In this document: positions 6,388 through 31,800 of the stretch, piece after piece
Numbering within the stretch: the stretch's first letter is position 1
How the letters are laid out: each line of letters starts with the position of its first letter
NCBI GenBank assembly: GCA_947441055.1
Contig: CANETC010000015.1
Span: 1 to 33,180, forward strand
Length of the DNA stretch: 33,180 nt
Source of the DNA: Cytophagaceae bacterium
Lineage (GTDB): Bacteria; Bacteroidota; Bacteroidia; Cytophagales; Flexibacteraceae
Reading direction: 5' to 3'
Translations under genes and position numbers: made by a program
The notes under the pieces: model-generated
Told to the model about the DNA's origin: nothing
The model's database searches: none
The model's input: the letters and a program-made list of their open reading frames with translations, nothing else

Positions 6388-6433
6388 GGAAATCGATAAA
6401 CTTCATTTTTCAGGTTGAAAGATTTTGCTGAGG

Positions 6434-6463
6434 TTTGTGCAATCTCATCAAGTAATATCTTTT
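6434..6463 (+). promoter_or_regulatory. Weak candidate promoter before first secreted paralogue
   Basis: TTTG at 6434-6437, an 18-base spacer, then TATCTTTT at 6456-6463, one base off TAnnTTTG. It would leave only a very short leader before the ATG at 6475, which weakens the call. The gap between the dehydrogenase stop and this gene shows no terminator hairpin, so read-through from ppsA is an alternative. Confidence 0.25.
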
Positions 6464-6474
6464 ACCCTGTTAAC

Positions 6475-9400
6475 ATGATTTTTTTCAAACAAATCCTTGG
6501 ATTTCTGGCAGCATGCCTGTTTTCCATTACCATGGCAAGTGCACAGGTAACTGTCACTTATAAGGTTGACATCAGCAATTATCTGGCTGGTGGTGCCACT
6601 TTGGGTGTAGGCGGAATTCGAATCGGCGGCAATTTTGGTGCATTAAATTCTCCTTTGCCCGATTGGATGCCTTCCGCCGTTCAGTGCGGCATGAGCAATA
6701 CCGGCAACAATGTATGGTCGATTTCTGTGACTTATCCGGCCACCTCTGTTGGTGAGACGCAGTTCTACAAATTTGTAAACAACGATTGGGGAACAAACGA
6801 GGGTGTAGCCGGCTCAACAATTGCCACTGGCGGATGTGGAGTAGATGACGGCGCTGGCAACATCAACCGAACGTTTGTTATCCCAGCTTCCAATGCCACA
6901 GTTTGCTTTTTTTGGGATGCCTGTACCAGTTGCCAGCAGTCAGGCACATTACCAACGGCTACGACTCTTTCACCGGCAACTGCGATTACCGACAATTCTG
7001 CAACTGTCGGTGGTTCATCCGCAGGTACTGGCATCACAGCCCGGGGCATTTGCTATGCCACCACCCAAAACCCGACTATTGCCAATTCCAGTGCATCCTC
7101 CGGAAATGGAGCCGGTGATTTCAATTCAAACCTGGGTGGACTAATGCCCGCCACAACCTATTATGCCAGGGCTTTTGCGACCAATTCTTCTGGTACAGGT
7201 TATGGAAACCAAATCAGTTTCACTACCCTCCCATCCCTGGATATCGTAGCAACTACAGGAACTTCCTCCAATTTGGGTTCCACTACTGCCGATGTTTCAG
7301 GATTTGTAAGCGGAACCAATATTACTTCCAGAGGCATTTGTTTTTCGACGAGCCAAAATCCAACAATGGCCAATTCAGTGGCAAATGCTGGAACCGGATC
7401 CGGAAGTTTTACTGCCAACCTGACCGGCCTTACTCCGAGCACGAACTATTATGCAAGGGCATTCGGAAGCGGACCAGCTGGAACATCTTATGGGAATCAA
7501 ATTTCCTTTACCACCCAGGCAGCACAGCCTCTGGGCATCACAATTACATTTAAAGTTGACATAAGCAATTACCTTACAGCTGGAAATACGCTGGGCGCAA
7601 ATGGGATTCGGATTGCAGGAAACTTCGCAGATCGCGGGGCAACTGTGAACGGAAATGCCATGGCAAACTGGACACCTTCAGATCCATTTTCTGGCATGAA
7701 TGACGAAGGAAACAACATCTGGTCCACGGACATTACCTTCCCAAGCAATTCCACCGGCCAAACCCTTACTTACAAATTTGTAAACAACGACTGGGGAACC
7801 AATGAAGGAACCGACCCAACGAATACAATCGTTTCCGGTGGTTGCGGAGTTGATGATGGTACCGGCAATGTTAACCGTACCCTTGTGATTCCTGCCAGTG
7901 TACAAACACTGGAATTTTGCTGGGATAAATGCACACCATGTGCAGGCACACCAAGTGCGCCGATCGTGACATCGGCGGCAGCCGCAACTGCTATTACTTC
8001 CAACTCTGCATCCATTTCAGGAACCGCAACAGGAACTGGCATCACCGCCCGCGGTGTTTGTTATGGCACTTCCCAAAACCCAAGCATTGCCAACACCGTC
8101 TCAAATGCCGGAACTGGCGAAGGAAGTTTTACCGCAAACCTCAGCGGGCTTTCTCCTGCAACGCTTTACTATGCAAGGGCATTTGCCACCAACGCAAGCG
8201 GCACTTCTTATGGATCAGAAATTTCGTTTACCACCCAGCCAGGTACACCGGTGCAGACCGTCAATGTCACATACAAAGTGGATGTAACAAATTACATCGC
8301 TGCCGGTAACACAATCGCTGGAAACGGCATTCGCATCGCCGGTAACTTCGCCGACCGTGGGGCCAAAGTAAACGGTACCGCCATGGTGAACTGGACACCA
8401 ACAGATACAGCATCCAGAATGACCAATACCGGAAACAACATCTGGTCCATCACGGTTACTTACGCCGATAGTTCTGTGGGCAAGACGCAGCAGTACAAGT
8501 TTGTAAACGGTAACTGGGGAAATAATGAAGGTGGTATTGGCTCTGGCATCGTCACCGGAAACTGCGGAGTTGATGATGGTGGCGGAAACATTAACCGGAC
8601 CTATGTTATTACTTCCACCACCCAAACCCTAACGTATTGCTGGGATCAGTGTGTTGCCTGTACAACGGCCAGCGCTCCGGTTGTAACAACCGCCGCTTCC
8701 GCAACTGCCATCACCGCCAATAGCGCGTCCCTCGATGGTACCGCAACCGGAACTGGCATCACCGCCCGCGGTGTTTGTTATGGCACTACCCAAAACCCAA
8801 GCATTGCCAACACCGTCTCAAATGCCGGAACAGGGGAAGGAAGTTTTACCGCAAACCTCAGCGGGCTTTCTCCTGCAACCTTTTACTATGCAAGGGCATT
8901 TGCCACCAATGCCACCGGCACTTCTTATGGATCAGAAATTTCATTTACCACATTGCCTGCTCAGGTTCAAGGTGTGAATGTGACATTCAAAGTAGATGTA
9001 ACAAATTACATCGCGGGCGGAAGTACCATTGGTGCAGGTGGAATCCGGATTGCGGGAAACTTTGCAGACCGTGGCGCCAAGGTAAATGGAACCAACATGG
9101 TAAACTGGACGCCAACAGACGCAGCCTCTGCTATGACAAATACTGGAAATAACATCTGGTCTATCGCCATTACATACCCGGATTCTTCCATTGCAAAGAC
9201 CCAAACCTATAAATTCGTCAACAACGACTGGGGCACCAACGAAGGAACCGATCCATTGAATAACATCGCCAGCGGAGGTTGTGGTGTGGACGACGGAACA
9301 GGCAACATCAACCGCACCTTGGTGATTCCATCAGCCAACAGCAATTTGACTTATTGTTGGGATCAGTGCACGAGCACTTGTGTGGTAACCTCCCTTGAAG

Positions 9401-9630
9401 AAATTAATTTGCCAACCACAACTGCAGCATACCCGAATCCTTTCTCCAGTAATTTGATTGTTGAAAGCCGAAACGCCGGGAAATTCCGCCTGATTTCAGT
9501 TCTTGGCAAGGTTGTGATGGAAGGCCAGTTGAACCTAGGGAAAAACAGCATTGAAACTTCAAGCCTTGGAAACGGACTTTACATTCTAAGCAGTGATGGA
9601 CAATCAATTCAACGCCTGTTGAAAAAGTAA
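6475..9630 (+). CDS. T9SS-secreted multidomain protein, starch-binding-like and FnIII modules
   Basis: A 1,051-residue exported protein with signal peptide MIFFKQILGFLAACLFSITM-ASAQ. Two kinds of module alternate. Type 1 (about 130 residues; about 25-154, 355-490, 594-730, 831-970) starts TYKVDISNYL, has GIRIAGNFADRG and YKFVNNDWGTNEG, and ends FCWDKCTPC with conserved cysteines. It resembles the CBM20/CBM48-like fold found in Bacteroidota secreted proteins. Type 2 (about 90 residues; about 162-253, 255-348, 492-587, 732-826) is the FnIII-like kind with ARGVCYGT, TYYARAFATN and GTSYGSEISFTT. Residues 974-1051 form a T9SS type A sorting domain (YPNPFSSN, GNGLYIL). There is no catalytic domain, so glycan binding or adhesion at the cell surface is the likely role, by inference. 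The frame extends upstream to a TTG at 6415, but the signal peptide fixes the start at 6475. Confidence 0.88.
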   Translation: MIFFKQILGFLAACLFSITMASAQVTVTYKVDISNYLAGGATLGVGGIRIGGNFGALNSPLPDWMPSAVQCGMSNTGNNVWSISVTYPATSVGETQFYKFVNNDWGTNEGVAGSTIATGGCGVDDGAGNINRTFVIPASNATVCFFWDACTSCQQSGTLPTATTLSPATAITDNSATVGGSSAGTGITARGICYATTQNPTIANSSASSGNGAGDFNSNLGGLMPATTYYARAFATNSSGTGYGNQISFTTLPSLDIVATTGTSSNLGSTTADVSGFVSGTNITSRGICFSTSQNPTMANSVANAGTGSGSFTANLTGLTPSTNYYARAFGSGPAGTSYGNQISFTTQAAQPLGITITFKVDISNYLTAGNTLGANGIRIAGNFADRGATVNGNAMANWTPSDPFSGMNDEGNNIWSTDITFPSNSTGQTLTYKFVNNDWGTNEGTDPTNTIVSGGCGVDDGTGNVNRTLVIPASVQTLEFCWDKCTPCAGTPSAPIVTSAAAATAITSNSASISGTATGTGITARGVCYGTSQNPSIANTVSNAGTGEGSFTANLSGLSPATLYYARAFATNASGTSYGSEISFTTQPGTPVQTVNVTYKVDVTNYIAAGNTIAGNGIRIAGNFADRGAKVNGTAMVNWTPTDTASRMTNTGNNIWSITVTYADSSVGKTQQYKFVNGNWGNNEGGIGSGIVTGNCGVDDGGGNINRTYVITSTTQTLTYCWDQCVACTTASAPVVTTAASATAITANSASLDGTATGTGITARGVCYGTTQNPSIANTVSNAGTGEGSFTANLSGLSPATFYYARAFATNATGTSYGSEISFTTLPAQVQGVNVTFKVDVTNYIAGGSTIGAGGIRIAGNFADRGAKVNGTNMVNWTPTDAASAMTNTGNNIWSIAITYPDSSIAKTQTYKFVNNDWGTNEGTDPLNNIASGGCGVDDGTGNINRTLVIPSANSNLTYCWDQCTSTCVVTSLEEINLPTTTAAYPNPFSSNLIVESRNAGKFRLISVLGKVVMEGQLNLGKNSIETSSLGNGLYILSSDGQSIQRLLKK
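8034..8235 (+). repeat. Intragenic repeat, copy 1 (third FnIII-like module)
   Basis: This block inside the first secreted paralogue matches 8751-8952 with about 10 differences in 202 bases by hand count, roughly 95% identity, at an offset of 717 bases. The offset equals one type 1 plus one type 2 module. Confidence 0.85.
8751..8952 (+). repeat. Intragenic repeat, copy 2 (fourth FnIII-like module)
   Basis: Partner of 8034-8235. The starch-binding-like modules that follow each copy are only about three-quarters identical in DNA over the part compared, so the near identity is confined to the FnIII-like module. Confidence 0.85.
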
Positions 9631-9790: not shown

Positions 9791-11890
9791 ATGAAATTTT
9801 CCAAACGCATTCTGCTTGCAATAAGCTTTCTTCTATTGATGGAAATGCCCTCAATGGCGCAGGTGAATATTACCTATGTAGTGGACATTAGCCTTTACCT
9901 CGATTCTGGAAATGTACTCGATACCGGAGGAATGCGAATTGGAGGCCGTTTCAGTTCGATGGGAATAAACAACATTCCTGACTGGACGCCGTCTTCGAAT
10001 CCCTGCAAAATGACAAATACCGGAAACAATCGCTGGAGCATTACCATTTCCTATCCGGATTCAGCCAAAGGGAAAGCCCAAGATTTTAAATTCGTGAACG
10101 GAAATTGGGGCACTGGAAAAGACGAAAGGTCCCCCGACCTGACTGGTTGCGGCTATATCAGCGGTGGCAATGTGAACCGCAGAATCATCGTTCCAAACCA
10201 AGACAGCACTTATTTGTATTGCTGGAACAGATGTTCGCCATGTCCGGTTCAATTTGTGGTGAGCACAGGAAACGCCTCCGCCATCACCAGCAATTCGGCC
10301 ACTGTAAGCGGCTTTGTAACTGGGACAGGCATCATCGAACAAGGCATCTGCTATGGCACAAACGCCAACCCCACGGTTGTAAATTCTTATACTTACGCTG
10401 ATCCCGGTTCAGGAAATGGAAATTTCAGTGCCAACCTAAGCATGCTTAATCCTGGTACGGTTTATTATTTCAGGACCTATGCAAGAAAAAGTGGAGGCTA
10501 CACATATGGAAACATTAACACCTTCACCACCCAAGTTCCCGGCCAATTTACCAGCATCACTTACAAAGTGAATGTGGGTAATTACCTGGCCATGGGCAAC
10601 ACCATCGGAGCCAATGGAATCCGAATTGCCGGAAATTTCATGAGCCTGGGTGCAAAAAAAGGGGGAATGAGCATACCAAACTGGATTCCTACAGACTCAA
10701 GCTGCGCAATGCAAAACATGGGAGGAAATATTTGGGCAATCACCATCTATTACCCGGATACTGCCATCGGAAAGGTTCAGCTTTACAAGTTTGTCAACAA
10801 CAATTGGGGACCCAATAGCAATGAAGGTTCAGACAGCTTGCTTGCAGCTGGTTGCGGAATTTTAGAAGGAACCGTCATCCACAGGATTTTCACCATTCCC
10901 GACACAGACCATACCCTTGAATTCTGCTGGGACAGGTGCAGTTCGGTTTGTGGTCCATTGCCTACGGCCCCAACCGTAAGTACCGGAGGTAGCGCCTCTG
11001 CGATTACCGCAAATTCGGCCACTGTTTCGGGCTCAGCCTCCGGAACGGGTATCTCAGCCAGAGGCGTCTGCTTTGACTTGGCCCCAAGCCCTACCACCAG
11101 TGATTCTGTCGTTGCTGCGGCTCCGGGTTCAGAGAATTTCACTGTGAATCTAATCAACCTGCAGCCCAACACCACTTATTACGCCAGGGCATTTGCGAGC
11201 AATCCGATGGGAACCAGTTATGGTAGCGAAATCAGTTTTACAACTGCCGTGGCCGTTCAGTTTTTCAACATAACTTATTCCGTTGACATCAGCTTGTATC
11301 TTGCACAGGGAAATACCGTTGGCCCAAATGGTATTCGGATCGGCGGCAATTTCGCAGATCAGGGTTGCACACTTCCAAACTGGACACCTTCTGCCCCGGC
11401 TTGTGCCATGACCGACAACGGCAACAACATCTGGTCCATCAGCATCCAATATCCTGATTCTGCTGCAGGAAATATTCAACGGTATAAATTTGTAAACAAT
11501 GACTGGGGCACAAATGAAGGTTCCGCAAATCTGGTGACAGGTGGCTGTGGCGTACAGGATGGTACCGATGTAAACAGGATTCTATCCATTCCCCAGTCTG
11601 CCAACACATTCACATTCTGCTGGGATTATTGCACATCCTTTTGCGAGGTTGGAAATGAGGCCCTCAAGAATAGACAAAGCATTGAAATCAGACCCAATCC
11701 GTTTGAGGAATCCATTGTGGTAAGTCTGGAAAAACCTTGCAAATATGAAATCACCAACCTAATGGGTCAAAAAGTCTTGCTTGGAGATCTCAATTCCGGC
11801 GATAACTCCATTGATACAAAGACAATTCAAAGCGGTATTTACTTGCTCAAAATGGAAGGAGCTGCCGCAATCAAAATTCACAAAAAATAA
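9791..11890 (+). CDS. T9SS-secreted paralogue, starch-binding-like and FnIII modules
   Basis: A 699-residue paralogue of the preceding protein. A signal peptide (MKFSKRILLAISFLLLMEM-PSMAQ) is followed by type 1 (25-152), FnIII-like (155-247), type 1 (253-388), FnIII-like (393-486), type 1 (491-619), and a T9SS type A sorting domain (about 628-699; IRPNPFEES, SGIYLLKM). Type 1 modules keep GIRIAGNF, YKFVNNDWGTNEG and the FCWDRCSS-C cysteines; the first is the most divergent (VNGNWGTGKDE). No enzymatic domain is present. Surface carbohydrate binding or adhesion is inferred from module type alone. It has its own promoter and terminator, so it is expressed apart from its larger neighbour. Confidence 0.88.
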   Translation: MKFSKRILLAISFLLLMEMPSMAQVNITYVVDISLYLDSGNVLDTGGMRIGGRFSSMGINNIPDWTPSSNPCKMTNTGNNRWSITISYPDSAKGKAQDFKFVNGNWGTGKDERSPDLTGCGYISGGNVNRRIIVPNQDSTYLYCWNRCSPCPVQFVVSTGNASAITSNSATVSGFVTGTGIIEQGICYGTNANPTVVNSYTYADPGSGNGNFSANLSMLNPGTVYYFRTYARKSGGYTYGNINTFTTQVPGQFTSITYKVNVGNYLAMGNTIGANGIRIAGNFMSLGAKKGGMSIPNWIPTDSSCAMQNMGGNIWAITIYYPDTAIGKVQLYKFVNNNWGPNSNEGSDSLLAAGCGILEGTVIHRIFTIPDTDHTLEFCWDRCSSVCGPLPTAPTVSTGGSASAITANSATVSGSASGTGISARGVCFDLAPSPTTSDSVVAAAPGSENFTVNLINLQPNTTYYARAFASNPMGTSYGSEISFTTAVAVQFFNITYSVDISLYLAQGNTVGPNGIRIGGNFADQGCTLPNWTPSAPACAMTDNGNNIWSISIQYPDSAAGNIQRYKFVNNDWGTNEGSANLVTGGCGVQDGTDVNRILSIPQSANTFTFCWDYCTSFCEVGNEALKNRQSIEIRPNPFEESIVVSLEKPCKYEITNLMGQKVLLGDLNSGDNSIDTKTIQSGIYLLKMEGAAAIKIHKK

Positions 11891-17087: not shown

Positions 17088-17268
17088 TGAAAATTGGATT
17101 GCAAAGAAAGTAAAGAAAATCGCCTTTCCCCAAAACCATGACAAGCCAATTAAGAAGCAGCAAAGCAACAAGGCGGTCACTTTATTAAGTCAAATTTGTA
17201 CTACCAATTGAACTCCTTTTTTCTTATCCTTGCACCACAATTTTTATGGACAAAGAGTAAACAAAAAT

Positions 17269-19608
17269 ATGTTGATTCTCAGAAGTTTGCCTTTCATTTT
17301 TTTGATGCCATTGTTGGCCTCAATTCCTTCTCAGGCACAGAAAAAAGCAGCGACCCCAAAAAAACCTGCCAGCAAATCCCTTGCTGCAGCCATTTCCGAA
17401 GATGAAAAATCCATCATTAGCATCGGAAAAACGGCCGTACCATTCCGCGAATTCAGGTATGTGTACAACAAAAACAACTCCAACGCCTCCGATGCCAACA
17501 CTGAAAAAAGTGTGAAGGAATATGTGGACCTTTATGTGAACTTCAAGTTGAAAGTAATGGATGCTGAAAAAGAAGGCCTCGACACCACAAACTCTTTTAA
17601 ACGCGAACTCGAAGGTTACCGCAAGCAATTGGCCAAGCCTTATCTCACAGATAAATCCGTTACTCAAAAGCTTGTAAATGAAGCTTATGAGCGAATGAAA
17701 GAGGAAGTAAGCGCTGCCCACATCCTAGTTAAATGCGACCCTAAGGCAGATCCAAAAGACACCCTTTCGGCTTACAACAAAATCATGGATTTGAGGAGAA
17801 GAATCCTCGGTGGTGAATCTTTTGAAAAAGTGGCCAAAGAAAATTCAGAAGATCCTTCTGCAAAGTACAACGATGGCAATCTTGGTTACTTTACTGCCAT
17901 GCAGATGGTTTATCCATTTGAGGATGCCTCATACAAAACTGCAAAAGGGTCTATTTCAAGCCCAATTCGCACACAGTTTGGCTATCATATTCTAAAAGTT
18001 CTTGACCGCAGACCATCTCAGGGTCAGGTAACTGCGGCCCACATTATGGTGAACGCAAATCCTGGAATGCCTGCAGAAGATTCAATCGCAGCAAGAAAAA
18101 AGATTTACGACATCTATGACAAACTCAAAAAAGGCGGAAATTTTTCCAGCCTTGTCCTTGAGTTTTCAGACCATTCCGGTTCAAAAACTAAAGGTGGTAT
18201 TTTGCCTCCATTCGGAACTGGCACAATGACTCCTTCATTTGAGAATGCAACCTTCGCACTGAAAGATACAGGTAAGTACTCAGAGCCTTTCCAAACACCT
18301 TATGGATGGCATATTGTGAAGTTGGTGAACCGCAAAACCCTTGAACCATTTGAGGAACTTAAATCTTCATTGGAGAGCAAAGTTTCCAAAGATTCAAGAT
18401 CTGAACTCAACAGAACCTATTTGATTGCCAAGCTTCGCAAAGAAAATGGCATTACAGAAAACAAAGTGCTAATGGCGTATGCTTTCTCAAAAGCCGACAC
18501 CAATCTTGCCAATGGAAAGTGGAAATTTGACATGGCGGACAAAAAACTTGATGAAAAGATTATGAGCATCAAGGAAAAGAAATTTACACTTCGTGATTTT
18601 TGGAAATACGCCGAGAAAAAGCAGCAGGTAACTCAATCCAAGGCACTCGATTATCAAATGAAACTTCTTTTCAATGATTTTTCTGATGAGTGTGTTCTGG
18701 ATTATGAAGAAAGTCACCTTGCAGATAAGTACGAAGACTACCGCATGCTTGTAAAGGAGTACCGCGACGGCATTCTGCTCTTTACCTTAATGGATCAGAA
18801 AGTTTGGACCAAAGCACTTGAAGACACTACCGGGCTGAAAAAATTCCATAGTACCAACGCAAGTAAATATGCTTGGAACGAGCGAGTTAAAGCCACCATT
18901 TATTCTTGCGCCAATGCAAAAGTGCTTGACAATGTAAGAGCAAAATTATCTCAGGGTAAGTTTGAAGTCACAGACCTGAAATTTGATGCAATCCGTTTTG
19001 TTGCAAAAAATTCTTTTCAGGGAATGAGCAATGTAATTTCATTGAAAGCCCATTCAGACAACCTCAAACGCGACAAATCACTTTCAGTAGAAATTTCAGG
19101 ATTTGCTGCCAAAGATGAAAAATCATCTGTAGCCTTGAAGCGCGCCAACCATGTTGCAGATTCGCTGGTAGCTCTTGGCATAGACAGAAGCCGAATTTCG
19201 GTGAGAGATTCCGGAAAAACCCACTTCCTTGCCACTGAAGGCGAAAGTCGCAGAGTGACATTTAAAGTGTTTTCCAACTCTCCGAAAATTATGGAAAGAC
19301 TGGCATCCGCTGCAGAACCGCTCAGTTTGAATTTGACCGAAGGTTTGTTTCAAAAAGAAGAAAACAAGACGCTTGACATGCTAAAAACATGGAAGCCTGG
19401 AACCTATACGGTTGAGAATAATGGCCGGTTGAACTACATCGTAGTGGATGCCATTGAAAGCCCAAGGACTAAAACCTTTGAGGAAGCAAGAGGAGCCGTT
19501 ATTTCTGATTACCAGAACTTCTTGGAAAAGGAATGGATTGACAGCATGAAAGCCAAAAACACCATTGCCATCGACGAAGCACTTGTAAAAAAGTTGATTA
19601 CCAAGTAA
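17269..19608 (+). CDS. Exported parvulin-type peptidyl-prolyl isomerase with possible OmpA-like insert
   Basis: A 779-residue periplasmic folding factor. A signal peptide (MLILRSLPFIFLMPLLASIP-SQAQ) is followed by an N-terminal chaperone-like region. Two PpiC/rotamase domains lie at about 147-245 (AAHILVK, FGYHILKVLD) and 254-353 (AAHIMV, YGWHIVKLV). The long C-terminal half is helical and ends in TFEEARGAVISDYQNFLEKEW, typical of Bacteroidota isomerases of this type. Residues about 590-670 read like a degenerate OmpA C-terminal domain (RANHVADSLVALGIDRSRI, then SRRVTFKVF), which I do not expect in this family. The frame is open to a TTG at 17230, but the ATG at 17269 starts the signal peptide. 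First gene of a four-gene operon with a second isomerase, MoxR and LspA. Likely clients are outer-membrane or surface proteins. Confidence 0.9.
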   Translation: MLILRSLPFIFLMPLLASIPSQAQKKAATPKKPASKSLAAAISEDEKSIISIGKTAVPFREFRYVYNKNNSNASDANTEKSVKEYVDLYVNFKLKVMDAEKEGLDTTNSFKRELEGYRKQLAKPYLTDKSVTQKLVNEAYERMKEEVSAAHILVKCDPKADPKDTLSAYNKIMDLRRRILGGESFEKVAKENSEDPSAKYNDGNLGYFTAMQMVYPFEDASYKTAKGSISSPIRTQFGYHILKVLDRRPSQGQVTAAHIMVNANPGMPAEDSIAARKKIYDIYDKLKKGGNFSSLVLEFSDHSGSKTKGGILPPFGTGTMTPSFENATFALKDTGKYSEPFQTPYGWHIVKLVNRKTLEPFEELKSSLESKVSKDSRSELNRTYLIAKLRKENGITENKVLMAYAFSKADTNLANGKWKFDMADKKLDEKIMSIKEKKFTLRDFWKYAEKKQQVTQSKALDYQMKLLFNDFSDECVLDYEESHLADKYEDYRMLVKEYRDGILLFTLMDQKVWTKALEDTTGLKKFHSTNASKYAWNERVKATIYSCANAKVLDNVRAKLSQGKFEVTDLKFDAIRFVAKNSFQGMSNVISLKAHSDNLKRDKSLSVEISGFAAKDEKSSVALKRANHVADSLVALGIDRSRISVRDSGKTHFLATEGESRRVTFKVFSNSPKIMERLASAAEPLSLNLTEGLFQKEENKTLDMLKTWKPGTYTVENNGRLNYIVVDAIESPRTKTFEEARGAVISDYQNFLEKEWIDSMKAKNTIAIDEALVKKLITK

Positions 19609-19678: not shown

Positions 19679-21052
19679 ATGACGATTAAGAAAAAAACAG
19701 TCTTTCTTCTTCAATCAGCTTCCATTTTGCTGATGACATTATTGGGTGCGCCTTGTATGTCACAATATACAGGCAACCCGGTAGCAGATAAGATTGTGGC
19801 TAGGGTAGACAATCAGATTCTCCTTAAATCAGAGGTAGAGCTGGGCTATCTTCAGGCAAAGCAACAAAATCAGGGAGTTCCCAGCGCTACGCTGAAATGC
19901 AAGGTTTTTGAACAATTGCTCATCAATAAGATGATGCTTGCCAAGGCGGACATTGATTCCGTAACGGTGGAAGACAATGTTCTCGAAGACCAGCTTGGCA
20001 GGCGAATGGCTTACATGATTCAGGCCATAGGTTCGAAGGAAAAGCTGGAAGAATATTATAAGAAATCCATCGAGCAGTTTAAGGCAGAGCTAAAAAAAGA
20101 AGTGCGCGATCAGCTGCTGGTTCAAAAAATCCAGGAAGGCATCAGTAAGAACATTAAAGTTACCCCCAACGAGGTAAAGCGATTTTTTAATGAAATTCCG
20201 AAAGACTCGCTTCCATTTTTTTCTACCGAAGTGGAAGTTGGGCAGATAATTCGCTTTAGCCAGGTAAGCAGAAAAAGCAAGCAAGTAGCCCGCCAAAAAC
20301 TGGAAGACCTTAAAGCAAGGATTCAGAACGGCGAGGATTTTAGTTTTCTGGCCAGGGCCTATTCTCAGGATCCGGGCTCTGCCAAAGAAGGAGGCAGTCT
20401 GGGATTTTGGGCCAAGGGAGCCATGGTTCCCGAATACGAATCAGCGGCATTAAAACTTGAGCCTTTGGGACTTAGCGAAATCGTTGAATCCGCTTTTGGT
20501 TACCACCTGATTCAACTGATTGAGAAAAAAGGAAATGAATACAATTCCCGGCACATTCTCATCAGACCAGAATCGGATGAAGAAGACCAAATGGCGGCGT
20601 TTCACAAATTGGACAGCATCCGTACAGCTTTGATGGCTGACAGCATAAGTTTTGGTGAGGCTGCTAAGAAGTTTTCCGAAGACAAGGAAACCGCATCCAA
20701 TGGTGGATTTTTTACAGACCCACAAACCGGAAGTACCCGAATCGCAACAGAAAACCTTGATCCGGGTATTTTCTTCACCATCGATACTCTAAAGCCAGGC
20801 CAGTACACAAAAGCACTTCCATACAAAACAGAAGACGGAAAACGCGGCGCCAGAATCTTGTATTTCAAAAGCAAATTGCTGCCTCATGAAGCCAATCTTG
20901 CCCAGGATTATCAGAAAATTCAGGCAGCAACATTGGAAAAAAAGAAATCTGAAAATGTGAAAAAATGGTTTCGCAGGACAAAATCAGAAGTCTTCATCAG
21001 CCGTGATAAGGATTACGGTGATTGTGAAATTCTAAAGGAAGAGGAATTATAA
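19679..21052 (+). CDS. SurA-like periplasmic peptidyl-prolyl isomerase
   Basis: A 457-residue SurA-type chaperone and isomerase for outer-membrane protein assembly. An N-terminal export signal (MTIKKKTVFLLQSASILLMT, cleavage near MSQ at 27-29) precedes the SurA N-terminal helical domain (ADKIVARVDNQILLKSEVE, 36-54). Two parvulin domains follow, at about 183-281 (EVEVGQIIRF, GFWAKGAMVPEYESA, SAFGYHLIQL) and about 288-397 (YNSRHILIRP, NGGFF). The first is the better conserved. The short C-terminal tail is basic, then acidic. It lies 70 bases after the first isomerase and 11 bases before moxR. Confidence 0.93.
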   Translation: MTIKKKTVFLLQSASILLMTLLGAPCMSQYTGNPVADKIVARVDNQILLKSEVELGYLQAKQQNQGVPSATLKCKVFEQLLINKMMLAKADIDSVTVEDNVLEDQLGRRMAYMIQAIGSKEKLEEYYKKSIEQFKAELKKEVRDQLLVQKIQEGISKNIKVTPNEVKRFFNEIPKDSLPFFSTEVEVGQIIRFSQVSRKSKQVARQKLEDLKARIQNGEDFSFLARAYSQDPGSAKEGGSLGFWAKGAMVPEYESAALKLEPLGLSEIVESAFGYHLIQLIEKKGNEYNSRHILIRPESDEEDQMAAFHKLDSIRTALMADSISFGEAAKKFSEDKETASNGGFFTDPQTGSTRIATENLDPGIFFTIDTLKPGQYTKALPYKTEDGKRGARILYFKSKLLPHEANLAQDYQKIQAATLEKKKSENVKKWFRRTKSEVFISRDKDYGDCEILKEEEL

Positions 21053-21063
21053 ATTATTAAAAA

Positions 21064-22026
21064 ATGAACTGGAGAGATGACGGAGAAGCAGCACAGGCAC
21101 TTAACCAATCCTTTGCTGAACTCGAAAAAGAAATAGGCAAAGTAGTAATCGGCCAGCAGGCAGTTGTTCGGTCACTGTTGATTTCTATATTTTCTCAGGG
21201 CCATAGCCTGCTGGTGGGCGTGCCCGGACTTGCGAAAACCCTATTGATCCAAACCGTTTCCCGTGCATTGGATCTGAGCTTCAACAGGATTCAGTTTACA
21301 CCGGATCTTATGCCTTCTGACATTGTGGGATCTGAGACCATGGACCAGAACCGGAATTTCAAGTTCATGCAAGGGCCAATTTTTGCAAACATCATTCTGG
21401 CCGATGAAATTAACCGGACACCGCCTAAAACCCAGGCGGCACTTCTGGAATCCATGCAGGAATATGCAGTAACAGTTGCTGGACAGAAATACCCACTCGA
21501 ACGCCCGTTTTTTGTACTGGCTACACAAAACCCCATTGAGCAGGAAGGAACCTATCCCCTACCAGAAGCCCAGCTCGACCGATTTATGTTTAACCTCAAT
21601 GTTGGTTACCCAAGTTTTGAGGATGAGGTAAGAATTGTAGAAGCCACTACTACCGACAAAATAGAAGATGTACGGAAAGTGATGGGCAAGCAGGAAATCA
21701 TTGCATTTCAGCAATTGGTTCGCCGCGTGCCTGTTACGCGCAATGTAACTGAATATGCAGTTCGACTGGCATCCAAAACGCGTCCGGGAACAGACACAGC
21801 CGCTCCGGAAGCCAACCAGTTTTTAGAATGGGGTGCAGGTCCGAGGGCATCTCAAAACCTAATACTTGCAGCGAAATGCCACTCTTTAATGGCCGGAAAA
21901 TTTTCCCCGGACATCGAAGATGTGCGCGCCATATGTTTGGAAGTACTTCGCCACAGGGTTGTCCGCAATTTTAAGGCCGAGGCCGAAGGCCACAGCGTGG
22001 AGGACATTATCAAACGCATGCTCTAA
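21064..22026 (+). CDS. MoxR-family AAA+ ATPase
   Basis: A 320-residue cytoplasmic MoxR-type AAA+ ATPase. Walker A is GVPGLAKT (52-59), Walker B is IILADE (110-115), sensor 1 is N156 in ATQNPIEQEG, and the likely arginine finger is R173 in PEAQLDRFMF. MoxR proteins act as chaperones that mature partner complexes, often with VWA-domain proteins; no VWA gene follows here, lspA does. The ATG lies 11 bases after the SurA-like gene. Confidence 0.94.
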   Translation: MNWRDDGEAAQALNQSFAELEKEIGKVVIGQQAVVRSLLISIFSQGHSLLVGVPGLAKTLLIQTVSRALDLSFNRIQFTPDLMPSDIVGSETMDQNRNFKFMQGPIFANIILADEINRTPPKTQAALLESMQEYAVTVAGQKYPLERPFFVLATQNPIEQEGTYPLPEAQLDRFMFNLNVGYPSFEDEVRIVEATTTDKIEDVRKVMGKQEIIAFQQLVRRVPVTRNVTEYAVRLASKTRPGTDTAAPEANQFLEWGAGPRASQNLILAAKCHSLMAGKFSPDIEDVRAICLEVLRHRVVRNFKAEAEGHSVEDIIKRML

Positions 22027-22891: not shown

Positions 22892-25800
22892 TTAATTCTT
22901 AACCAACCTCAGGCGTTCAAACCTGCCGTTGGTTTCAATTTCAACAATGTACATGCCAGGAGGAAGTGAGCCGGTATTCAGCTTTTCTTCCGCAACACCG
23001 GCGGATGGTTTCACCTGTCCCTTCAGAATTTCTGCTCCGGTAAGACTAAGCAAGCGGTAAGCCAAAGAATTGGCGGACTCCGATTGAACTTTTAGCAACA
23101 CCTGATTTGAAAAGGGATTTGGTGAAATCGAAATCCGCTGATCTTTCGAATTGGAAGAGATTCCTGTACAAATCATGATTCCAACCTGGATGGTATCAGT
23201 GAAAATACAATTGGTGGAAGTGGTAAGCTGCACATGATAAGTACCCTGATTACCGATTTCATAAAACGAGGAGGTACTTCCATCCTGCCATAAAACAGAG
23301 GCATAATTGCTCAAGTCGAATTGCAGAACTTCCCCATCGCAGAGAAGGGTATCAGGCCCAAGTCCCGGAAACTCCGGCGTGCGGAACACAGTCATTGTGT
23401 CGCTGGCTTCCGGACAACCTGCGCCATTGAGTGTCCAGCGCAAAATTGTTTTTCCTGGTGGGAGTCCCAAAACCAGCGAACCTGCCAACTGTGGACTTTG
23501 CACTTGCCCCGAACCCGAAACAAGCCCCCAGACTCCTGAAAACGGTTGCTGAACAGCAATTGCATTTAGCCTTACAGTGTCGGTGCAAGTTTGGAGCGAA
23601 GGACCCGCATTGGCCTGCAATCCTTCTATTATGGAAATGGAAACCGTATCGCTGCTATTGGGACAAGCCGTTCCAGAAACTGTCCAAACAAACGCATTGT
23701 TGCCGATTGCAAGGTTGGACACAGAAGTATTGGCCTGACTTGGATTTGCAATGCTGCTGTTACCAGAAATCTGTGTCCATTGTCCCGTTCCGGCAGCCGG
23801 AGAAGCAGAAGAAAGCGTTGCCTGTGTGCCGCAAAGTATCTGATCTGAACCAGCCTGGGCAGAAACAGGCAAGCTTACCTGCAAGTTAATCTGATTGGAA
23901 ACGACCTGAATTGGATTCGCACAGGTTGCGGAGGAAATCAGGCGTAATTGAACAGCATCATTGTTCGCCAAGGAATCTGTTTGATAAGTCAAACCTGTTT
24001 GCACAACTTGCCCATTGAGCAACCATTCGAGTCCCGGTGCAGCACCCTCACCACTTATCTGGGCCGAAAATGTTGATAAAGTTCCCGTACAAAGCGAATT
24101 CCCTGCTGAGGAAACAATCAAGGCCGAAGGATTTACAGAAGGCGTAGCCAATATTTCCAGGGTATCTGAATTTATCGCACAAGCTGAATCTCCGAAGGCC
24201 GTAACAAAATACGAACCTGATTGACTGATCGAGATGGATGATCCGCTTTGATCCGTACTCCAGAGCAAACTCAATCCGGCTTCAGCCGAGGCGGTCAACA
24301 CGGAAGTACCACCTTCACAAAGAATGCCGGTATTGCTTATTGCAGGAGCTGCCACACTGCGGTGTACCAATGTATTGTTGTCATTACAGTCTGTACTGTC
24401 ACGAACAAATCCAAGGGGTAACTCTGTATCAAGTGAATCAATTGAAGGGTTTCCATAACCATCTCCATCCGAATCGGCGAAATATTTCGAAGGGACAAGT
24501 GATTGAAAATCAAAATACCCAAGCGCAAGATCCGAATTAGCCACGCCAGTTTTCACTCCAATGGCGCGAATGGTGGCAGAATCTGAAAGAACAAATGGCC
24601 CAGAATACAACAAACTAGAATCCGCTCCCGGAACCGGAAGGCTACCATCGAGGGTATAATAAATTTCTGAACCTTCTGTCGCACAGGTAATCACAATGGT
24701 TTGAGGCTCAACAAAAACCTGAGGCGGCGGCGCAGAAGCACCCGGTGGGCTGATGATGGGTTTGGCAACCTTTTCTCCCAACACAACCGTCATTTGTGGA
24801 ATCAAGGGCAGCAACTCCTTATTGCCGGTATTGTCGATGCTCCTCAGGAAGAACCTGTACACATTGCCAATTTCAAAACCAGTCAAAATGATCGAAGCGG
24901 TATCGGCTTTAAACAGGCCAATGGATTCCGGATCAGCACCATTTCGGCTAATTAAAATTTCAGTTTTGGATGGTCCTGAGCCAGCATCGTCATCCGCTAC
25001 AGACCAGGAAACTTTAATTGAAGTTGAATCCTGAGTACCCGATTGAGATGTAACCAGGGTAGTGGGCGGAAGGGCATCGACAATGTTAAAATGTCGGTTG
25101 GTAATCACAGGTTCGTTGAAATCGAAAAAGATTTCTGCCTGTGCCCGCAGGCTGTCGCCTGTTTGGGTGCTTGAATCTGCCACGATTGTGTATGAAACAA
25201 AACCTTCGCCTTTTCCTGTGGAATCATTTACAGGAAGAAAGCCTTTATCCGGATTGGTTGAAGGCAGTCCGGTGCTTGCATCCAGGGTTGTAAATTGCCA
25301 GAACAGCTGTCGATTGAGGATATCAATCGTGCCCAATACACTCACTTTTATTCCCCTGTCTTCGGAAAGGTCGATTTCGGAAGTAAATGAGTTTTGTCCA
25401 GCGGGCACATCAAATATCTGATTGCCAAAACCAAATTGCTTCAAGCGCAGGGCGGATGCTTTTAGATTGGTATCCAAAGGTTGAATGACACGCACCATAC
25501 CAGCTGCAGCCGTTGCAAAAACCGGATCATTTTCAAACAATATGGTGAATGGCAAAGTATCCGTTTTGGCTACAAACTGGGATTTCCCAAAACCATCCGG
25601 CCCATCGATTTCATTAGGATCGCAGGAGTATCGGACTTCGGTACACTTTTGATCAAAAAACGAAAGATTCGGGAAGCAACCTGCAAATTTTGGCTGCGAA
25701 ACATCGCAAAGAGTCAAGGTGCAAACGGTGTACATTTGACCACACCTTTGCTTGGTGGTGGATGTGGTGGTCGTACATTCCGCAGTTGCTGCTGCACAGG

Positions 25801-28800
25801 AAGGGGATGGTAGTTTGGTGCTAGGTGGTTGAAAATCATCCAAATCACGGTCTCTTCCAGAAGGCGGACCGGTTGGTGGCGCCGGAGGTGGAACAGGTGT
25901 AGGGCCTTGGGGTTGGCCGTCATCGTCAAAACAACCAGGGCATCTATTCAGCGGATTAAAAGCACCGCCATCACCCAGAAAACCAACACCACTCTGGGTG
26001 GAATTACTACCACCACCGGATCTTGCCTGGGCATTGGGTTGGTATTCACCGAAAATGGTGGAGTAAATGCAGGGCCCAAAAACAAGCCCATTGTTTAGGT
26101 TTCCAACCAATCCACCGCCCTGGTTTTTACCAGTCGGAAGGCTGAGAAAACGGCTGCCCAATCTGCGTTTAAATTCAACCGAATCTCCATTGCAAGCTGA
26201 TTGAATCAAATCCTGAGGAGTTCTTCTGAAAGCCGAGGAATAGCTATGAAGAATACCATCCGTAAAATCAAGGTATAAACTTGAATCCGCTGGAAGATTA
26301 TATTCACTCAGCGGAGCAAAGCACAAATACTTCAAGCTTAAGTTGCGAATGGCAACAGGATTGAAAATAATGCCATAGCTCTTCATTTCATTGGGCTGCA
26401 ACAAACTAGGATAATATGGATGTGCTTCAATAGAATCCATATCAGATTGCCTAAAAAATCCCGAAGAGCGTAAATTCTGGTAGGCCAGTCGCTGGAAACT
26501 CCAGTAACCACCGAGAGAATCCAAAATCTGCTGGTTGCTGATTTTATCCAATTTTTGAATGGAAATCCAGCGCAGTTTTTCGACTTGCTCAGCCATCATT
26601 TGATGGAAATTAGCATCTGGGATGTCTTGCGCCGTTCGGAAAATTGGCAAAGAATTGATGGATCCGAATCGCTCCAATTCCATTGAAATTTGAAATTCTT
26701 CATTCGGTCCCATGTTTCGTTTCCAGGCAGGAATAAAATTAAACATGTCCATCTCTTCCTGATGAATACTGCCACCAAGTGTAAACACGCCTGTTTTCTC
26801 AATCAGTCCATTGAGCCCTACGGCATTCGAACTGACCACAATGTTTTTTACATTGGTAAAACCAGCGACAATAATTTGACCGAATCCATTTTCAATATCC
26901 GTGTTTCCTGCATTCAGAAAGCGGTAGGTTATTGGCAATGTGCTTCCGGCTGTTACAACAGATGGCACATCATCCTGAATAATAATTCCAGTTGGAGATT
27001 TCGGTAAAACCTGAAGGCCATTGGCCAAATCGAAAGTATCGAGCCCGGCCTTTATTGCTCTGACAGTGTAAAAACCCAGCGCTAAATTTTTGCAATGAAA
27101 TGTAACACGGGCCTGCATGCTGTTGCGCAAAATCCTGATTTGAGCGGTATCCACTACCTGACCAGAACCATTCAGTAAAAGGAATAATGTCTGGGTGTTG
27201 TAAGCCGCGCCTTTTACTTCGCAGGTGGCATTTCCTTGTCCGACTTTGTTTGGTGAAATAGACAAAATACTAAAAGGTAAAGCCCTGACTTTCAAACCAA
27301 CAGGAGCAGAACCTGAAGGACGAATCCCAAAATAATAAGTTCCGGATTCTGAGCTGGGGATAATCAGTTCGGTACTTCCGTCTTCCGGAGAAGAGAATTC
27401 CGCGGTACTGGCTACAGGAACTTTTTCCTTTGAAGCATATCCCGAAGCACCTTGAAATTCAGCCAGGATATCCAGACCTTGACCAATGGCAACCGAGCGG
27501 TAGAAGTAATCGCCTTGAAAACCAGACTCAGATGCCTGAATATCCAGTGCCAATGGATTGATAAACAAGTTTCTAAAACCTGCAGCATACGATTCATTGT
27601 TGGCAAAATTGGATTCTGAATTCAGGAAATTACTGTTGACAAATGTGCCGGGCTTATAGTTGCCCGGTAAAATTCCAGATGCTACAACCGAAGCATTAAA
27701 GGTCTGATTTGCACCAGCATTCAAAGACAATTGTTGATTGACCGATCCAATTTCTCCGTCAGAAAATGGATTAAAAATCCCTGTTTTTGAAAGTCGGAAT
27801 GTGTTTTTGGACAGGCCTGAAAAAGCGCCAGAACCTTGGTTTCGAAGCACATAGCTGATGTCCAATCTACGACCAGCTTCTACATTGGCAGGAAGTACAA
27901 GCGGATCGGCCACCAGATCGGGATAAACCGGTGAAGAAATGGTTACCGGTAGCACCAATAGATTATTCGACTCGCCTGAAGTTCCTTCAAAGGTTTTTTC
28001 ATCGGCATCTACTTCCAGAACTAGAAAATAATTGCCTGCAAAATTGAGGGGAACGAAACCGCGAATGGTGTCTTTTACTGGAATATTGCTTGGCATATTC
28101 GAAATGCCTGTAGCCTGTTGAGAAGATCCAATAATGCCACCAGAGATAATTTCGGTTCCGGTTGGCGAATTGGACAAGGCAGCTCTGGTTACGCACACGC
28201 CCTGCAGCTCATTCACTCCAGTATTTTTAATGACAACTGGAATGCGAAAAGCAGCACCTGCTATAAGTGAAATAGCAGACGGCGTTTGTGCAAAAACCAT
28301 ATCCGGAACAGGCGATGTTCTGAAAAAGATATCCCGTTCAAATGTTTGGTTTGTGCGGTCTGCATCCTGAGCAAAATTTTCAGCTAAGCGAACCCGCAAT
28401 TTGTATTGGCCATTCAGCGCTGTATTTCGCGTGATGGTTCGGGCCGGAATTGTAAAGCTTGACGGAAATGAATCGCTGAATGAAAGCAGATCTGTACGGG
28501 TCAGATATCGAATGTTGGGGTTTGTTTTATCCCAGATTTCAATGGACACATTACAGGATTTTGGCATGCCAGGTCCCGGCTGAATGGTATTGAAAAATCC
28601 TTGCGCGCTCACTTGAAAGCTTGGCTGATTTTGGAAAATATCAATGGTATCGGGCGCCGTTACGGAACTGATTCCGATGTCAAAAGATGTGCCGCTGGCC
28701 ACTTGTAATGGAATTTGTGCAGAGTTGTTATTTTCATTCAATTCAACCTGACTTGCCAATTCGTCAACCTTCACAAGCAAATTGTAATTTCCTCCTGGGA

Positions 28801-31800
28801 TGTAAATAGGAACCGGCTCGCTGACATTTACAGTAAGCGATTGGCCTCGCTTGATTGGCGATATTTCCTGATATTGAAGAAAAAACAATTGATTGTTTTC
28901 GACTGAACTGAGGAAATAATTGAGTCGAACAGACCCCAGTCCATTGGCATTGCCCACATTTTTCACTTGAAACGAGAAATCCAGATTGGTACCCGCCTGA
29001 ATATTTCCTGGTCCGGTTAGGGACTGGATGATGTAATCTGGCTTTTTGCTTGTATCAACATCCAGCTGAATGCCAGGGTTATTGATGTTGTTTGTCTCAA
29101 ATGAATACTCGAAAACCTTGTTGGTAGCGTCTGATTCTACAAACAAAAACAATGGGGTTTTTCCAAGGAAGGGAACAGCAAAATTGACTGAATCCGAATA
29201 AGTGCCATTGGGTAAAAAATTAGAAACCAATGGACTAGAACTCTTCAATAAAATAGCAGTGCTTTTATTGAACACTGGCGATTTGCTCAAGTAGACATTG
29301 TCTGTCCATGGCCTTTCGAATGCAAACGGTGCGTTCAAACCGACATTGCGTATTTGGTACTTAAGGCGAACTGTGTCTCCGGATTGCGTGGAAATTGGAT
29401 TGATCAGAATGCTGCTGACTTCCAGATCCGCTGGTGGGCGCAAAATGACATTAAATTCATTGGAGCGGATCAGGTTGTTTTCCTTAATCAATTCGGAGAA
29501 CATGCCCGTACCGCCATTCAATTGAACATAGATAAATCCCTTCCCATAAAAAGTATGTGGGATCAGGCTTGAATTGCTAAAAACCACAACACTGCTATCA
29601 ATCTTTAAACGGGGATCCGTTTGCATGTAGGCATCATTGCAGTCGTCCGGGTTATTCGAAACAGGACTTTGCAATTGCCTCGGGTTTACCAGCACAGTGC
29701 CAATCTGAATGGCATTGCTGTTGAAAATTGAATCATGCGATATATAGACCAGATCAGTCCAATATGGATCCAGTTTCTGGCAGATTTGCGGACTTGGAAC
29801 AACAACGGAGGCCGTGCCTAAGGCATTGGCCGTTCCCTGGTTGCGCACCTTATAACTCAAAGAGAATGTTTGACCACCCACAGCGGTTGATGGCACAAAA
29901 GCTGAACCGATGCCCACAACATCCGGGGAGGTAAATTGAGAAACCAACAGAACTTTTCCTGGATTTCTGAAAGTGCTGTTGTTTGTTTCATCCGACTCTC
30001 TGATGCTTAGGTCCTTATCGGTTTGTACATACAGAAAATACTCTCCCAATCTGCTAGTTTCAATCTGGAAACTCCCATTGTAAGAGGCACCTGGCATCAG
30101 CGCATTCAGGTTGGCTTTGCTGTCCAGTTCAATATCGTTTCCAATTACAGAATCATTGGAAAAAAAGAGCTTGTCCAACCAGAAACCCGGAAGTGTTACG
30201 CCCGTCCCTTGATTTTTCACTGTGTAAGTCACATTCAGCAATCCGGGAATTCCAATAACAGCCTGGGATTGAACATTTAATACAATCAGATCCGGCAAAT
30301 TTCTGGTGGTAAATTGCTGCACCGGGCCATTGGTTTGCTGGCAAGCCGAGCGGGAAACCAGCTGCCAATTGAAGGCAGTTCCAACAGCTAGTCCAGCAAT
30401 GTTAAAGCTGATTAAGCTTGTATTGATTAACGGATTGGCAGGCCTTGAAGGCAAACTTGCATCCCATACATAGAGATCGTATGAAATGGCATTCGCACCG
30501 GGCTGCCAGGAAAGCGTGAAAGAAGTTTCCTGGTTGATGCTGCCATCCTCCGGCAACATCGCAGAAACAGGAGCCGGGGAAAGCGAAGGCACAACCTGAA
30601 CTTGAATTGTATCTTTATAAATACAAGCATTTACGGAAGTCGTGCGAACAGAAAATTCAGTACTGGTTGAAGGGCTAACCGTGATTCCCGAATTGGTAGT
30701 TCCATTGCTCCAAAGGAAAGCGGCTCCGGAAGAAACAGAAAGGGAAATGGAATTTCCTGCGCAAATGGTATTAACAGGTACATTGGAACTCAGTACAGGA
30801 GCATTATCCACTGAAAGACTTATGAAATTGCTGCTTGCCTGGCAACCATTGGTTCCAGTGGCGATTACTGAATAATTACCTTCCTGAATGGCCGAAAAAT
30901 TCCCAGCGTCAACACCCGTATTCGCCCCATTTCGGAACCATAGAATTGAAGCAAGAGCAGATCCGTTGGCGTTGATCAGGACTGAAGATTCAGGACAAAT
31001 AACCGCCGAAGGCGCAGTTAAATTGACAATTGGATTCGGTTTTACTGTGATGGAAATGCCAGTGGAAAGAAGACTTGCGCAACCATTAGAAACCGCTTGA
31101 ACTGTATAAACGCCTCCTTGGGTCACCGTAATGCTATTGTTGTTGCCGACCACAGAAGTTCCATCGACGAACCAGAGATTTTCTCCGCTTGCAGAAGACA
31201 CAAGTTCAAGACTTCCATTTTGGCAAAAAGAAGTTTGTCCGCCGGAAGAAATAACAGGCCTTGCCGGAATCGTACTGTTTACATTGACAAGGATGGAATT
31301 CGAGAAAACAGTGCAGGAAGAAATCGTCTGTTTTACCCGATATTCACCTGAAGTAGTTGCTGTGAAAGTAGCAGATGTTGCAGCAGAAATATCCAAACCA
31401 TTTTTCTGCCATTGCACCGAGCTCGCAGATGATGATTGTAAATTAACTGAGCCACCGATGCAGAAATTTACATTGCCCAAAGCCGTGACAACTGGTGCAC
31501 TTTCGTTTACCAGATTGATGACAATGGCGTTTGAAAAGACCGAACAGCCGAAGGCATTTTGAACTGCAACTGCATAAGATCCTGCAGCATTTACCAGCAG
31601 ACTATCCTGGATTTTTCCCGGAAGGTCAATCCCATTTTTTTGCCATTGGTAGCTGAAACCTGCGCCCTTATTGGCTTTTAAAACAGTGCTGTTGCCCTGG
31701 CATAAATTGGCTGAACCTGCATTCACGATGGAAGCTGTCGGACTTGGATTTACTGTTACCACAACGGCCGCAGAGGTATCCGAACAACCTGCACCCAGCG

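Follow-up and report, generated by a model that had tools for sequence, protein, structure and literature searches.

A complete OmpA-like domain was present inside a parvulin-type peptidylprolyl isomerase encoded in a 33,180-nucleotide stretch of DNA from a Cytophagaceae bacterium (contig CANETC010000015.1, positions 1–33,180; hereafter, the window). The insert had a length of about 106 residues and was lineage-wide, being found in much of a Cytophagales-like order and not in the window genome alone. The host region of the insert was likely a third, degenerate parvulin-like domain. With moderate confidence, the isomerase is read here as a foldase of SurA/PrsA type that bears a docking or scaffold domain derived from Pal, and this domain has probably ceased to bind peptidoglycan in the conventional way. 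The isomerase and its parts were located as follows.

17230..19608, + strand: 792-residue parvulin-type peptidylprolyl isomerase with a signal-like N-terminus (open reading frame; Pfam Rotamase and Rotamase_3 in two stretches)
17695..18015, + strand: parvulin domain 1, approximately residues 156–262 (Pfam Rotamase best stretch 164–258; Rotamase_3 154–261)
18025..18345, + strand: parvulin domain 2, approximately residues 266–372 (Rotamase_2 best stretch 287–378)
18865..18954, + strand: likely third parvulin-like domain, first half (strand and first helix), approximately residues 546–575 (alignment with insert-free orthologues; strand 539–547 and helix 550–562 of the model)
18955..19272, + strand: OmpA/Pal-like domain in the third parvulin-like domain, residues 576–681 (Pfam OmpA, 33.0 bits; Foldseek and VIA-align matches to OmpA and Pal; profile match to Pal, E 7e-15)
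19273..19464, + strand: likely third parvulin-like domain, second half (second helix and strands), approximately residues 682–745 (orthologue alignment; model)

The open reading frame was listed with a TTG start, and the ATG at position 17269, which corresponds to residue 14, is the likelier true start. The AlphaFold2 model was numbered from this residue, with model numbers equal to the residue number of the open reading frame minus 13. The N-terminus had a hydrophobic, signal-like stretch and no lipobox pattern. The PPIC-type isomerase domains scored above the Pfam cut-off (Rotamase, 161.3 bits, in two stretches), and parvulin domain 2 (model residues 250–358, residues 263–371 of the open reading frame) was superposed on PrsA (PDB code 6vj4) with a Z of 17.3 and an r.m.s.d. 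of 1.1 over 95 residues. The full-length model had a pLDDT of 87.2 and a pTM of 0.62, and its best Foldseek match was E. coli SurA (E 8e-16); the VIA-align listing for this model consisted mostly of parvulins, and the lack of other folds in it is uninformative. The isomerase was thus similar to the SurA/PrsA parvulin foldases in its two parvulin domains, but differed from them in the extra, likely degenerate parvulin-like domain with the OmpA insert; SurA_N gave no match at E ≤ 10 in the Pfam profile search, which does not prove that domain absent.

The preliminary description had recognised an OmpA-type segment at 19000–19290 (residues about 590–670). The segment was borne out and the quoted stretches were found there (ISGFAAKDEKS from residue 622, KRANHV from residue 637, and SRRVTF from residue 673), whereas the domain was found to begin earlier, at 18955, and to span residues 576–681. 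In a profile search, Pfam OmpA (PF00691; curated cut-off 27.2 bits) matched residues 604–672 of the whole isomerase with 28.8 bits (E 1.6e-6) and the insert alone with 33.0 bits (E 7.6e-8). The NCBIfam models YfiB, TpgA, YiaD, MotB, and Pal gave weak matches on the same stretch, far below their cut-offs. The insert was then aligned with its homologues, giving 42 sequences, namely the one from the window, those from relatives within the order, and three from another class; PF00691 was matched at E ≤ 0.01 by 33 of them. When a profile of the 42 inserts was searched against the PDB, E. coli Pal was matched at E 7.2e-15, together with Pal and OmpA of many species, PorE, and MotY. The same profile recognised the other OmpA places of the genome, 11 of 14 at E 3e-18 to 7e-12 and the remaining three at E 1.5e-8, 2.8e-5, and 0.035. 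DUF748 (PF05359) was also matched at E ≤ 0.01 by 10 of the 42 inserts. In L159 the match was to the C-terminal part of DUF748, which hints that this part is OmpA-like.

The OmpA fold was also predicted for the insert. The AlphaFold2 model of the insert alone had a pLDDT of 88.0 and a pTM of 0.81, and both this and the full-length model showed the order strand-helix-strand-helix-strand-strand, so that the structure prediction called for in the preliminary description returned the beta-alpha-beta-alpha-beta-beta fold with Z values of 14.9–15.2 to a solved OmpA-C-like domain. This domain (PDB code 9uu2) ranked first in Foldseek for the insert model and was superposed on it by VIA-align with a Z of 14.9 and an r.m.s.d. 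of 2.0 over 102 residues; Acinetobacter Pal (4g4w) gave a Z of 14.5. From the full-length model the corresponding Z values were 15.2 and 15.0. Of the two results that would have counted against the preliminary description, a missing OmpA profile match and a predicted fold lacking the beta-alpha-beta-alpha-beta core, neither was obtained.

The insert had been described as lying between the usual C-terminal parts of the isomerase. Insert-free orthologues did align on both of its flanks and ran straight through the junction, but the insert appeared to interrupt a single parvulin-like domain and not to separate two complete ones. The segment equivalent to residues 576–681 was 96–122 residues long in 127 of 168 proteins and at most 53 residues long in the rest; the proteins came from retrieved loci, several of which represent one genome more than once. 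The host region is likely a third parvulin-like domain because the Pfam Rotamase_2 best stretch fell there in orthologues of other classes (e.g. residues 604–694 in L161 and 681–795 in L162) and because the order of strands and helices in the AlphaFold2 model fitted a parvulin. When a profile of the third domain, built from 25 insert-free orthologues, was compared with profiles of parvulin domains 1 and 2, the match was weak (probability 3–5% over 25–28 columns). If the host region is a parvulin-like domain, the insertion point would fall after its helix 1 and before its helix 2. In three orthologues of another class (L161, L163, and L166), a helical-looking stretch of about 50 residues occupied the same junction, which makes the loop look like a hotspot for insertions.

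PorE of the type IX secretion system is a Bacteroidota envelope protein with an OmpA-like domain, and to our knowledge it has no parvulin domains. The OmpA-like domain of PorE (PDB code 6top) was similar to the insert (profile E 2e-14, fold Z 12.6), but is terminal, by its PDB title, whereas the insert is nested. Each of the modules is known, and searches of an open-access library found no paper on the combination of a parvulin or other peptidylprolyl isomerase domain with an OmpA-like or peptidoglycan-binding domain.

Most relatives of the isomerase were predicted lipoproteins. A lipobox pattern was found in 75 of the 80 loci of the relative set and was lacking in the open reading frame of the window; the five loci without it were the nearest relatives of the window (L031–L034) and L043. 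The lipid anchor of most relatives therefore appears to be absent in the genus of the window, as judged by a simple pattern, which failed to pick up some apparent lipoboxes in loci outside the 80-locus set. The isomerase was followed by the genes for a SurA-like isomerase, a MoxR-type ATPase, and signal peptidase II, in this order, the first two being located as follows.

19679..21052, + strand: SurA-like isomerase, the next gene (Pfam SurA_N and Rotamase)
21064..22026, + strand: MoxR-type AAA ATPase (AAA_3)

The SurA-like neighbour matched SurA_N with 34.5 bits and the isomerase of PDB codes 8hm3/8hm4 over most of its length (phmmer E 5e-79). A SurA-like gene was found within 2.5 kb downstream in 78 of the 80 loci, the flanks of other loci being often too short, and MoxR also followed in many relatives whose flank extended that far. 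In the window, the SurA-like gene started 70 bases past the stop codon of the isomerase, whereas many relatives (e.g. L009, L030, L111, and L134) had a gap of about 800 bases before it, with room for one gene.

The preliminary description had proposed an alignment of orthologues as a check of lineage specificity, and the insert proved to be common to much of the Cytophagales-like order. Among the 59 relatives searched, an orthologue spanning the insert was found in 43 (42 checked by segment length and G045 judged by alignment span alone), and the gene was present without the insert in seven (G012, G020, G025, G028, G041, G043, and G057). The orthologue of G058 was cut by the contig end, and eight relatives showed none. 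In a sample of 296 genomes of the phylum, the isomerase was matched at E ≤ 1e-30 in 183. Among the matches listed, most of which were not individually inspected, the alignment extended beyond residue 700 only in the same order and in three genomes of one family, f38, of another class (G112, G302, and G072; loci L158–L160). Pfam OmpA scored above cut-off in the inserts of L158 and L159 and below it in L160.

In a tree of residues 61–545 from 78 proteins, the insert-bearing rows of the order were within one clade of 53 rows (SH-aLRT 98), the rows of f38 were separate from them, and the insert label changed five times. An origin of the f38 inserts in the same event as those of the order was disfavoured by this separation and by the order of helices in L158. 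There, a helix similar to the second parvulin helix (GKTLEQIF) preceded the OmpA part, whereas it follows the OmpA part in the order of the window; the f38 insertion was therefore probably separate and at a slightly different point. Alignments of diverged sequence thus suggest that the f38 insert probably arose by a separate event in the same domain. The insert was absent in L111, L112, L113, L115, and the f19 clade. L111 was located inside the insert-bearing part of the tree with a complete gene, which suggests a loss there and indicates that the domain is dispensable at least in that genome.

The residues of the insert that correspond to the peptidoglycan-binding site were compared with those of Pal. 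Asp, Asn, and Arg are described as critical for diaminopimelate binding in the Tp0624 report (PMC5104382), and Asp271 and Arg286 are given as diaminopimelate-site residues of A. baumannii OmpA in a second report (PMC5974059).

19108..19146, + strand: remnant of the peptidoglycan-binding motif, residues 627–639, with Ala627 at the Asp position, Glu630, and Arg638 (insert alignment)

The insert was similar to Pal and the OmpA C-terminal domain (PF00691) in its profile score over the curated cut-off, its full fold, and its binding-site Arg, but differed in being nested in another domain and in the rest of the site. The Arg, Arg638 in the window, was found in all 39 order-level inserts and in 79 of 79 loci (the 80-locus set minus the near-copy L032). 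The Asp was kept in 15 of the 39 inserts and 15 of the 79 loci and was replaced by Ala627 in the window, where another Asp, Asp629, occurred two residues past this column. The Asn-bearing segment, NxxLSxxRA, was absent in the window and deleted in most members. The Arg followed the Asp column at a spacing of 11 in 32 of 42 inserts, against 15 in Pal as given by a four-residue gap of the profile alignment, and this shortening of the loop in most members indicates removal of the Asn segment. A Glu eight residues before the Arg (Glu630) was found in 38 of the 39 inserts and 71 of the 79 loci. The genome contained 15 OmpA places; when the insert itself, L181, and L184 were set aside, 10 of the remaining 12 could be read by a motif pattern, and among these 10 the Asp was kept in nine and the Asn in eight, as counted by eye. 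The decay of the site was therefore specific to the insert.

The preliminary description was thus right that the N..LS and Asp residues are altered, and its suggestion of a scaffold rather than a peptidoglycan binder fits the residue pattern, which would argue against conventional peptidoglycan binding in the lineage. A similar pattern is known from Treponema Tp0624 (PDB code 5jir), a divergent OmpA-like domain that the insert model matched in Foldseek (5jir_B, E 1.2e-5). According to its report, Tp0624 shares the change of Asp to Ala with the Arg kept, diaminopimelate binding was not detected, and the OmpA-like domain is the C-terminal one of three, whereas the insert is nested in a foldase (PMC5104382).

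Taken as a docking or scaffold module, the insert would have the following history. The isomerase would be an exported, periplasmic SurA/PrsA-like foldase with two well-scoring parvulin domains and a degenerate third. Early in the Cytophagales-like order, a Pal/OmpA-type domain may have entered this third domain after helix 1 and before helix 2, to be carried since as a nested arm. The ancestral arm plausibly joined an outer-membrane-anchored foldase to peptidoglycan, because most relatives are predicted lipoproteins. The diaminopimelate site would later have been rebuilt, with the Asn-bearing segment deleted, the Asp optional, the Arg invariant, and a new, nearly invariant Glu. At present the arm most likely serves as a dock or scaffold, with either a partner protein or an altered ligand bound to it, and the dock may place the foldase close to the outer-membrane assembly machinery instead of serving as a conventional peptidoglycan anchor. 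The simplest reading, in short, is of a foldase that works in outer-membrane delivery and bears an arm derived from Pal. Computation supplied the domain itself, the fold predicted for it, its position, its distribution, and its residue pattern; from these we infer export, location, the loss of peptidoglycan binding, docking, and the link to outer-membrane assembly, as well as whether the arm was ever tethered to the wall and what its present ligand is. A more specific form of this reading, offered only tentatively, is a repurposed Pal domain whose pocket of Arg and invariant Glu serves a different ligand, either a partner protein (for instance a BAM or TolB-like component) or the terminal carboxylate of a substrate. 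The foldase would then have a built-in envelope dock, and the phylum would have gained such a dock in this degenerate parvulin domain independently on two or more occasions.

It is rather unlikely that peptidoglycan binding persists in the insert by way of a remodelled pocket of Arg638 and Glu630. The insert would then tether the foldase to the wall, as the only tether in the genus of the window, which is without the lipid anchor. Perfect conservation of the Arg would also agree with retention of a ligand site, the Glu, nearly invariant in an otherwise diverging domain, could stand in for the Asp, the nearest PDB profile matches were peptidoglycan-associated lipoproteins, and the domain was kept in the genus of the window though the lipobox is missing. 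However, Ala takes the place of the Asp in the window, most members have lost the Asn segment, and the domain with the same change of Asp to Ala showed no diaminopimelate binding (PMC5104382).

A passive spacer or relic, inserted once and kept because it folds without disturbing the host domain, is improbable. The insert was the fastest-evolving part of the isomerase, with a mean pairwise identity of 0.22 against 0.33–0.58 in other parts, and natural orthologues do without it (L111, L112, L113, L115, and the f19 clade). Conservation of the Arg (invariant) and of the Glu (nearly so) would argue against a mere relic, as would retention in 43 of 59 relatives and a dN/dS of about 0.08 for the insert, the latter from one pair with few changes, the window and a 96% relative (L002), since dN/dS was saturated for most pairs and usable for this pair and few others. 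A convergent or chance OmpA likeness of an unrelated alpha-beta extension is scarcely credible and already contradicted, for although the insert as a single sequence gave nothing significant with phmmer against the PDB (E 0.39 or worse), its profile matched Pal at E 7e-15 and the genome's own OmpA domains, and its predicted fold was superposed on the OmpA-C-like domain with a Z of 14.9–15.2 and an r.m.s.d. of 1.8–2.0 over 101–102 residues.

For outer-membrane protein assembly, Bacteroidota are reported to use a BAM complex that has additional subunits, some of them with an isomerase fold (PMC12611786 and PMC12578637), and SurA of B. thetaiotaomicron co-purifies with BamA (PMC12578637). A SurA-adjacent foldase with a nested, lineage-wide Pal-type domain suggests that delivery to the BAM machinery may be spatially organised, by the wall or by a dock, and the natural insert-free orthologues make this question directly testable. 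The insert also documents, over much of an order, an OmpA domain in which the Arg was kept and the rest of the wall-binding site was rebuilt.

Elsewhere in the window, the adjacent same-strand genes at 6415–9630 and 9791–11890 had similar N-termini and type IX sorting tails, and look like tandem secreted proteins. A 3413-residue protein on the − strand (22892–33133) contained repeated Ig/CARDB-like segments, and its end resembled, by eye, a type IX sorting domain.
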